In this document: positions 26,493 through 28,366 of the stretch, piece by piece
How positions within the stretch are numbered: the first letter of the stretch is position 1
Layout: each line of letters opens with the position of its first letter
Source of the DNA: Cystobasidiopsis lactophilus
Taxonomy: Eukaryota; Basidiomycota; Agaricostilbomycetes; Agaricostilbales; Chionosphaeraceae
Reading direction: 5' to 3'
Assembly: GCA_001599975.1 (NCBI GenBank)
Contig: BCIO01000003.1
Location: 186,001 to 250,000 of the forward strand
Length of the DNA stretch: 64,000 nt
Made by a program: the position numbers and the translations under genes
Notes under the pieces: model-generated
What the model saw: the letters and a program-made list of their open reading frames with translations, nothing else
Databases searched by the model: none
What the model was told of the DNA's origin: nothing

Positions 26493-27404
26493 GTCAGTGC
26501 CGGATCACCACTTTAAGATCTTGCCAGCAACGAGTTTTTAAACTTGTCCTCATTGACAGGCTTGCTTTCACACATAGCTCTTCGTCATTTTATTACGACT
26601 TTTTTCCAACCTTGCCATTGCGCCTTTGTGGATATCAGCAGGTCAGTGCCGGATCCACCACTTTTGAGATCTTGCCTTCCGGGCGTTTTCTGAAAAGTAA
26701 CTCCTGCCGACAGCCAGGCCATCTTCTTCTCCACTCTATCATAGCAGCGAACATCGGCCTGGGGAGGAAAGGTCGGTGCTCGTCGTTACCTTGAGATCTT
26801 GCCAGCCGCAACGTCTCACCTGTTTTTTTTTTCTTGGCCTCGACAGCCCACCTGTCCATTCGCACTTCTACGATTCGTTTGAGCTCTTTGCCAGTACCCA
26901 TCATGATAGACCTGGGTCGCATAGCAAGGTCAGTACCTATGGAGCCCCTTAGATCTCGCCCTCCTGCGAGTTCTCACGGTTTCCAGGGGATCTGACAGAT
27001 TTCCTTCTCTGCCAGTACCCATCATGATAGACCTGGGTCGCATAGCAAGGTCAGTGCCTGTGGATCCCCTTAGATCTTGCCCTCCTGCGAGTTCTAACCA
27101 GTTCCAGGGCATCTGACAGATTTCCTTCTCCGCTCTTGCACACCCACTACATCTTCCAAGCCCAGAGGTCACTCATATGGATTGGTCAAAAAGGTCGGTT
27201 TGGACGCCTACTCTTAGATCTTTTGCCACTGGCGAGTTCTCAAGCTATTGTGTTCCCCTCCGACAGCAACCCTTCCAGTCCTTGTCGCTGCAGATGGCCG
27301 TACATCCTCCACTGAGGCTCGTTCTAGGCGGCAGGTCAGTGCTGGTCTTGCACTTTAGATCTCGTCCGCACTCGAGTTCTCAAGGTGACCTTCGAGATTG
27401 ACAG
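26493..27404 (+). repeat. Array of seven related spliceosomal-type introns (introner-like)
   Basis: Seven intron-like segments follow each other: 26493-26559, 26642-26713, 26772-26846, 26929-26998, 27050-27119, 27194-27266 and 27335-27404 (67-75 bases). All begin GTCAGT or GTCGGT, carry an AGATCT block followed by T/C-G-C-C or a close variant, then in most CGAGTTCT with a CTAAC or CTCA branch-like site, and end in GACAG. The bases between them (51-82 long) look like exons with AG before the donor. The internal shared block is not needed for splicing and is not seen in the other introns of this window. The fourth and fifth copies are nearly identical and share their flanking exon. Confidence 0.8.
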
Positions 27405-27569
27405 GCTGCATCTCCCTTGGCCCCATGCCCTTCCTCGCGGCTACTTTCACATACATCCTTTCTGCTTGTAAATGCACACAACCTGAAGTTTGAAATTCGC
27501 CACCCTGAACCCACAAATCTTGCCTCCGCCCCCTGTGAGCTCAAAATCCGCGGCGCCGACCTCGCTTAA
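26903..27569 (+). CDS. Possible gene or leader frame threaded through the intron array
   Basis: If the array introns are removed, a single frame stays open through every exon from 26560 to a TAA at 27567-27569, with all phases agreeing. The first ATG in this frame is 26903. Coding pieces are 26903-26928, 26999-27049, 27120-27193, 27267-27334 and 27405-27569, giving 127 residues. The start MIDLGRIARFPS is repeated once because exon 4 is a copy of the end of exon 3. No domain is recognised. The stop lies 22 bases before the ATG of the MMTAG-like gene, so this could instead be part of that gene's 5' leader. Open frame over about 190 codons argues for coding, but a second frame is also open for part of the way. 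Confidence 0.4.
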
Positions 27570-27591: not shown

Positions 27592-28366
27592 ATGGGCGAC
27601 TTTGGCGGTGGTCGTGAACCTATCCGAGGTGGCACTGTGCGTTGCTTCTAATCCCTAGCTGATCGATGCTGATGGGGGGACGGACAGCGAGGCGGGCAAG
27701 GACAATTCGCTTGGTCGGACGTGGCTGCCGTTCGTTCCTGACCTTAAACACTTAGCACTAATGCTTAATAAGTGAGATGAGCAGGACAAAGACCGGGAGA
27801 ACTACTTGGGCCACTCCTTAAACGCGCCTGTCGGTCGATGGCAGAAGAACAAGGACATCACTTGGTGTTCGTCGTCCTCCCTCTTCTCTCTCACTTTAGC
27901 ACTAACACAAGCAACTTGTGACATGTAGATAACAAAGATCAGACTTCAGAAGAAGCAGCCGCCGCCGAGTTGAAGCGGATCAAGCAGGCCGAAGAGGACG
28001 CTTTGGCTTTAGCCTTGTTCGTTCTCGCCTTCCCTTAGCTTAGCACCCCTCGTTGTTGGACTCAAAGGTGTAACGCACAGAGGATACGCACCGACGACCA
28101 AGCGGGAGTTGACGGCGGAAGAGGTCGAGGCGAAGGCGGCGGCCAAGGCGGAGAAGAAGGCGCTCCGGCGGATGGAGAAGGAGGAGAAGCGGGCGAGAAA
28201 AGAGGCCAGAAGGGCGGAGAGGAGGTCCAGGTCGAGGTCGCCGGAGAGGGACAGGCGGAGGGAGGAGGAGGAGGATGGGGAGAGGAGCAGGAGGCACTAC
28301 AGGGAGGACAGGGACGACCGCGGGAGGGACTATGATAGGAGGGAGCGCGATAGGGACAGGCGGTGA
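27592..28366 (+). CDS. MMTAG / kinase-phosphorylation-domain protein (MMTAG2-like)
   Basis: Five exons, 27592-27636, 27688-27729, 27785-27866, 27929-28016 and 28081-28366, give 180 residues. The N-terminus has [11 protein letters not shown] and [12 protein letters not shown], followed by [19 protein letters not shown] and KDITWY, the hallmark of the MMTAG domain found in animal MMTAG2. The C-terminal half is a charged helix rich in Glu, Lys and Arg, ending in an Arg/Ser/Asp tail ([12 protein letters not shown]). Family members are nuclear and poorly understood. Three of the four introns start with GTTCGT. The array of similar introns immediately upstream may be its leader. Confidence 0.85.

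Follow-up and report, generated by a model that had tools for sequence, protein, structure and literature searches.

Seven related introns at one locus of Cystobasidiopsis lactophilus as a possible local form of a genome-wide intron design with complementary donor and acceptor ends

The usual description of splice sites is as distinct consensus motifs, which are read by U1, U6 and U2AF. A mirtron is a short intron that folds into a hairpin with the splice sites at its ends and an AG overhang of 2 nt. For the fungal introner-like elements of Dothideomycetes and the symmetric sister stwintrons of Hypoxylaceae, passages of two reports describe a fold that joins donor and acceptor, and copies that begin and end exactly at the intron borders, with no repeats flanking them (PMC8469720, PMC4457414). 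A passage of the latter report attributes less than 1% of the single intron gains in one fungus to within-gene tandem duplication (PMC4457414). Another report names the pezizomycotine fungi as the only group, of the eight that bear introners, that is not aquatic, and gives fungal introners as having neither terminal inverted repeats nor target duplications (PMC9860276). In the nonconventional and intermediate introns of euglenids, as outlined in part of one account, positions +4, +5 and +6 pair with -6, -7 and -8, joining the intron ends, and the GT-AG introns of euglenids have a stem structure in some strains only (PMC4770533).

The locus that we compared with these systems lies in a window of 64,000 nt (C3:186001-250000, contig BCIO01000003.1) of the 22.1 Mb genome of C. 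lactophilus, which comprises eight contigs and has the gene content of a fungus, probably a basidiomycete; positions given without a contig are those of the window. A first-pass annotation had described seven consecutive intron-like segments at 26493-27404 on the forward strand as sharing the donor GTC(A/G)GT, an internal AGATCT block and the acceptor GACAG, and this was borne out, as each of the three signals was found in all seven segments, which are 67-75 nt in length (Table 1). The sequence CGAGTTCT was present in exact form in four of the seven (I4-I7) and was altered in I1-I3. The same annotation had considered that ordinary introns share only splice signals with these segments. This held for the internal block, with AGATCT present in just one of 167 ordinary predicted introns, but not for the intron ends, since complementary ends were also found in many other introns. 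Based on the splice signals, we infer that the array segments are GT-AG introns of one transcript.

Removal of the array introns left a frame of 194 codons that was open from 26488 to a stop codon at 27567-27569 and had no start codon close to its 5' end. The coding score of the exons was -14.7 per 415 nt, compared to a 5th percentile of +9 for CDS and to a median of -32 and a 95th percentile of -22.8 for introns, and the protein reading of the spliced array exons had no Pfam match at E<=1. Based on this low coding score, the lack of a Pfam match and the MMTAG2-like gene that begins at 27594, the array probably represents either a non-coding transcript or the 5' leader of the MMTAG2-like gene.

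Table 1. Features of the intron array and its downstream neighbor (positions in the window; introns, folds and exon joins are predicted)
Feature	Positions	Strand	Length (nt)	Ends	MFE	z	Remarks
Intron I1	26493-26559	+	67	GTCAGT..TTGACAG	-16.9	-3.05	paired-end hairpin
Intron I2	26642-26713	+	72	GTCAGT..CCGACAG	-21.7	-2.49	A.C mismatch at +4/-6 of end stem
Intron I3	26772-26846	+	75	GTCGGT..TCGACAG	-16.8	-1.34	G-C instead of A-T at +4/-6
Intron I4	26929-26998	+	70	GTCAGT..CTGACAG	-30.1	-3.86	
Intron I5	27050-27119	+	70		-30.6	-4.97	tandem-duplicate partner of I4, 87% identity to I4
Intron I6	27194-27266	+	73	GTCGGT..CCGACAG	-22.2	-2.65	
Intron I7	27335-27404	+	70	GTCAGT..TTGACAG	-23.5	-2.21	
Exons E2-E7 between array introns	26560-27334	+	82, 58, 82, 51, 74, 68				predicted splicing leaves one frame open throughout and another over 125 codons
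Two tandem copies of a unit (exon 4 end, intron, next exon start)	26885-27126	+	121 (unit)				92% identity
MMTAG2-like gene, next downstream	27594-28366	+					PF10159 MMtag, E 2e-31, exons joined by eye

The seven introns are mutually related, in agreement with the first-pass annotation. Relative to shuffles, 15 of the 21 intron pairs had z of 4 or more and the other six had z of 1.3-2.7; z was 42 for I4-I5, 17.9 for I1-I2 and 11.5 for I4-I7. When compared to pairs of non-array introns, 15/21 array pairs exceeded the 99th percentile and 6/21 did not (by global score, 11/21 exceeded it), and the top-scoring pair of an array intron with a non-array intron reached 25, which is the level of mid-ranking array pairs among those exceeding that percentile. 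The exons were mostly unalike, as the only outliers in the 15 exon pairs were E4-E5 (z 34) and E5-E6 (z 5.6, with a common start), with E3-E6 at 2.5. The identity of the flanks at a fixed offset, in the 20 intron pairs without I4/I5, was 0.31 on each side compared to about 0.26 expected from exon composition, indicating that the likeness mostly ends at the intron borders. Similarity bounded by the splice sites, with unrelated flanks, was therefore found for 20 of the 21 pairs taken together, with I4/I5 as the exception.

Flanks about as alike as chance in these 20 pairs are the expected outcome if the introns were copied as units. The alternative that had been put forward, repeated local duplication of an intron together with its exon, was shown for I4/I5, where the duplicated unit is 121 bp; the other introns had no clear exon likeness. 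The I4/I5 duplicate had nine differences in 70 intron positions versus one in 51 positions of the exon parts (p 0.04). Our reading, for which we estimate a probability of roughly 0.57 jointly with the explanation by end pairing given below, is that the seven array introns are related by local multiplication, one by tandem duplication that included exon pieces and the others with a likeness confined to the intron. Either the introns were copied as units inside the locus, or they descend from old unit duplications in which the exons were lost and the introns kept. In the one datable pair, I4/I5, the exon has changed less than the intron, which argues mildly against the account by exon loss.

The array had also been proposed as a candidate family of introner-like elements, and at the sensitivities used the defining feature of such a family, copies in unrelated genes, was lacking, so that this proposal was not supported. 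The pattern GTCRGT N8-24 AGATCT N18-48 GACAG had 11 matches genome-wide, seven of them in the array, compared to three in a reversed-pattern control. A DNA search with I5 as the query (E<=10) matched I5 and I4 alone, and a sequence profile of the array introns, run over 272 kb including the sites of all four non-array pattern matches, recovered the seven array introns alone; the copies thus appear to be confined to the locus, with no convincing copy in an unrelated gene by DNA, pattern or 272-kb profile search. A pattern for the inner hairpin was found in three array introns and at two places on C2 (control 0). Rfam, searched over 260 kb at the gathering threshold, gave no match, and one below-threshold hit was located near the array (E 3.3).

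Two of the four non-array pattern matches were plausible introns (C2:3860692-3860752 and C6:432335-432400), both of them with GTCAGT, AGATCT, GACAG and a predicted fold with paired ends. Removal of the C2 intron produced an unbroken frame with a dual-specificity-phosphatase match that spans the junction, in a gene that we take to be CDC14-like, and the host gene of the C6 intron was, as judged by eye, TMA7-like. The shorter pattern GTCRGT..YYGACAG had 382 matches versus 246 in its control, so the occurrence of AGATCT by chance in one or two real introns would be unsurprising. Based on the four non-array matches compared to three in the control, the resemblance of these two introns to the array could be due to chance.

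The MFE folds of all seven array introns have a stem that runs from the first intron base to two bases before the intron end, leaving a 2-nt AG overhang. On the forward strand the folds had z of -1.34 to -4.97 versus dinucleotide shuffles (mean -2.94), I3 being the weakest, whereas the reverse complements were weaker (z -0.31 to -3.28, mean about -1.3) and the six exons were near 0. The array introns were more stable than the 167 ordinary predicted introns (mean z -2.83 vs -0.87, one-sided p 0.0007). The pair at +4/-6 is A-T in four of the array introns, G-C in two and A.C in I2. I4 and I5 are equally stable despite their nine differences, a result that is matched by 0.8-7% of random nine-change sets, depending on the direction and the drawing method. 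RNAalifold, applied to the first array alignment, predicted an inner hairpin of 10 pairs, one of which was changed on both sides; a MAFFT alignment had the 3' ends out of register, and pair counts on it were left out. Apart from the splice signals, the apical stem was the best conserved part of the array introns and the arms were less conserved. The predicted folds of the array introns are symmetric and stable, as described for introner-like elements, if weakest in I3, and by prediction their hairpin ends are the splice sites, as in mirtrons.

Ordinary predicted introns of this genome, which are mostly 50-70 nt in length, also have complementary ends (e.g., GTTCGT..CGAACAG and GTGGGT..CCCACAG). 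A rough, purpose-made gene finder predicted 183 introns in 75 genes in C3:1-260000, missing MMTAG2 and the array. In 169 of the predicted introns, the Watson-Crick fraction was 0.521 at +3/-5, compared to 0.348 when permuted, and 0.462 at +4/-6, compared to 0.297, and neither value was reached in any of 2000 permutations. The excess was confined to the +3/-5, +4/-6 register among the 13 registers tried. End stems of at least 5 bp were found in 59 of these introns versus about 21 expected, and there was an unpaired fraction, with stems ending at 1 bp in 30/169 and at 2 bp in 40/169. The commonest donors among the predicted introns of C3:1-260000 were GTGCGT, GTTCGT and GTGAGT. At +4, C and A had about the same frequency, which differs from the usual fungal consensus.

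Counts that need no gene finder revealed the same covariation of donor and acceptor. In the whole genome, on both strands, GTGCGT..GCACAG occurred 1587 times (reversed control 64) and GTTCGT..GAACAG 1039 times (241), whereas the swapped combinations GTGCGT..GAACAG and GTTCGT..GCACAG occurred 233 times (132) and 163 times (131), respectively; the raw odds ratio of this two-by-two table is about 43. Complementary donor and acceptor ends of introns occur in thousands of places, for example at C1:5591-5652 (-) and C1:35803-35876 (+). In the local 260 kb, GTNNGY..ACAG with complementarity at +3/-5 and +4/-6 had 137 matches versus 37 in reversed sequence, and 131 remained without the array. With the array left out, eight of the 16 possible +3/+4 types (AC, CA, GA, GC, GG, GT, TC and TG) occurred at no less than 1.8 times expectation. 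The remaining eight types had no clear excess, including CG, the type of I3 and I6, which outside the array was found four times versus six in the reversed control.

Beyond +3 and +4 the evidence for pairing was mixed. Opposite the fixed G at +5, position -7 was C in 57, T in 26, G in six and A in two of 91 typed GTTCGT..GAACAG introns. The T at -7 could reflect a G.U pair, or could have another cause in CpG decay; where no CpG is involved, T accounted for 23 of 41 non-C bases, above one third (p 0.002), in a set that includes chance hits. Pairing at +6/-8 was not above permutation. Further in, with G.U counted, the values at +7/-9 and +11/-13 were each reached by 20 of 2000 permutations, and that at +11/-13 by 8 of 2000 in a second set; the other positions tried, including most of those from +8 to +14, were within the permutation range, and the inner complementarity was therefore patchy. 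At +3/+4, G.U was not clearly favored over A.C (57 vs 42; control 47 vs 42, p 0.31), so that pairing at the RNA level is not proved against a cause at the DNA level.

A branch-like CTNA was predicted to be paired upstream in 50 of 91 introns versus 35.0 expected, and in 41 of 66 versus 23.7, the expectation being that from shuffled upstream sequence. Inside the end stem, the folds of ordinary introns were only a little more stable than those of shuffles (mean z -0.64 and -0.49), and the array introns had a mean of -1.92. None of 33 candidate paralogous intron pairs showed a double compensatory change at +3/+4, and in one pair or more the stem was broken in one of the copies. At C3:129-134 kb and C3:190-196 kb (approximately 4-10 kb of the window) lie blocks of paralogous genes on opposite strands; their introns are as much as about 97% alike, in many cases with the paired ends included. 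A U1 snRNA search with RF00003 gave no match, and the controls gave no match either.

Based on these observations, we propose that the array introns represent locally an intron design that is found genome-wide, with complementary, covarying donors and acceptors, and in which the ends would pair in the RNA and help to define the intron; the probability of about 0.57 given above applies to this proposal together with the local multiplication. In this model, donor positions +1 to about +5 would pair with acceptor positions -3 to about -7, leaving the final AG unpaired, and in an array intron the inner stem would reach as far as the branch-like site. By pairing in the pre-mRNA, the ends would hold the two splice sites together. 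A change at the variable donor positions +3 and +4 would be compensated in the acceptor, and the pairing would take over part of the role in recognition that a fixed consensus at donor positions +3 and +4 has in other fungi. The covariation is an observation; that the ends pair in the RNA and aid splicing is what we infer from it. A wider form of the proposal, to which we would give slightly less than an even chance, is that a large class of spliceosomal introns, thousands genome-wide, uses a two-part splicing code. In this code +3/+4 could vary freely, since a hairpin would allow them to be read jointly with -5/-6, and the branch site would have a second stem of its own; the array would represent such hairpins multiplying locally.

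The main rival to this proposal is that the complementary ends are a fading trace of palindromic introner-like elements, several symmetric kinds of which spread in the past, with the array as a late local burst. One report describes fungal introner-like elements and the Hypoxylon stwintrons as symmetric and as having inverted repeats or stable folds; degenerate copies are proposed there to become regular introns (PMC8469720). The exact intron borders kept in the 20 array pairs other than I4/I5, the lack of a clear preference for G.U at +3/+4 and the remaining inner complementarity at +7/-9 and +11/-13 are all consistent with this origin. However, long inverted repeats should fade over their whole length, and the complementarity seen here peaks at the ends and becomes patchy past +6. 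In addition, complementarity is present in many different end types, the searches described above revealed no wider family for the array block, and fungal introners are described in another report as having no terminal inverted repeats (PMC9860276). That the signal is concentrated at the ends and that the end types are varied weakens this rival, and we consider it rather unlikely. Even less probable, and the least so of the readings weighed here, is that the seven introns are members of an introner-like element inserted into many genes. The common internal block, the exact borders and the phosphatase-gene (C2) and TMA7-like (C6) introns, with their array signals and paired ends, would suit such a family, but DNA, pattern and profile searches found no further copies, the C2 and C6 introns themselves were missed by the profile at E<=10, and the number of non-array pattern matches barely differed from that of the control.

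Two readings of the locus itself seem to us improbable to a similar degree. The array may be a host transcript for hairpin RNAs, its exons serving as spacers and its excised introns as mirtron-like precursors, as the coincidence of hairpin ends and splice sites, the non-coding appearance and general dissimilarity of the exons, the greater stability of these introns than of ordinary ones and the Piwi and RNase III domains encoded in the genome would allow. Paired ends are common to many introns, though, and are thus no mark of a special product; furthermore, it is the apical stem that is best conserved rather than the arms that would give a small RNA, and in I4/I5 the intron has changed more than the exon. 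Alternatively, the segments may not be introns at all and may represent a tandem array of structured elements in unspliced RNA or intergenic DNA, in line with the low coding score of the exons and the failure of the gene finder to predict the array. Against this, AG is unpaired after the stem in all seven segments and AG precedes the stem in six of the seven, branch-like sites are present, and removal of the segments leaves one frame open over the six inner exons. The same architecture also occurs in the C2 intron whose removal restores the dual-specificity-phosphatase match across the junction. Piwi matches were located at four places in the genome (C4:140-141 kb, C4:543 kb, C2:622 kb and C2:716 kb), and two RNase III matches, one over and one under the cut-off, lie approximately 1 kb apart at C1:765-766 kb; from these domain matches, RNA interference may be present in this fungus.

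If introns with paired ends are as we propose, intron recognition in this fungus would depend in part on the structure of the RNA instead of a fixed sequence. Covariation of donor and acceptor at matching positions would show, through compensatory variation arising in nature, that the two intron ends can be recognized as a pair. Among the open-licence PMC articles listed in our search, there was no report of genome-wide donor-acceptor complementarity in fungi. The proposal is directly testable by compensatory mutation in a fungus with a small genome, it would improve intron prediction in this fungal group, and it would bear on how symmetric introner-like elements turn into regular introns.

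Set against the known systems, the array differs from the introner-like elements and stwintrons in that no convincing copies were found in unrelated genes, and in that the complementarity is short, is strongest in the outer five bases and is present genome-wide in introns unrelated in sequence. It resembles them, as far as the cited passages describe them, in having predicted spliceosomal introns with a symmetric fold, exact intron borders and no flanking repeats. Compared to mirtrons, the arms are the less conserved part of the array introns, although the predicted hairpins likewise have the splice sites at their ends and an AG overhang of 2 nt. The 121-bp unit of I4/I5, which includes exon pieces, is a counterpart to the multiplication of introns by tandem duplication, whereas the other array introns are without clear exon likeness. 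The introns of this fungus differ from the euglenid introns of the partial account cited above in being GT-AG, fungal and mostly 50-70 nt long, with a pairing that would begin at +1/-3 and that is not significant at +6/-8. We consider the euglenid intermediate introns only as possibly working alike, the host being a fungus by its gene content. Within that comparison, the pairing register described for euglenids agrees with the +4/-6 pairing detected by permutation and with the C or T found at -7 opposite the G at +5, whereas +6/-8 was not above permutation.
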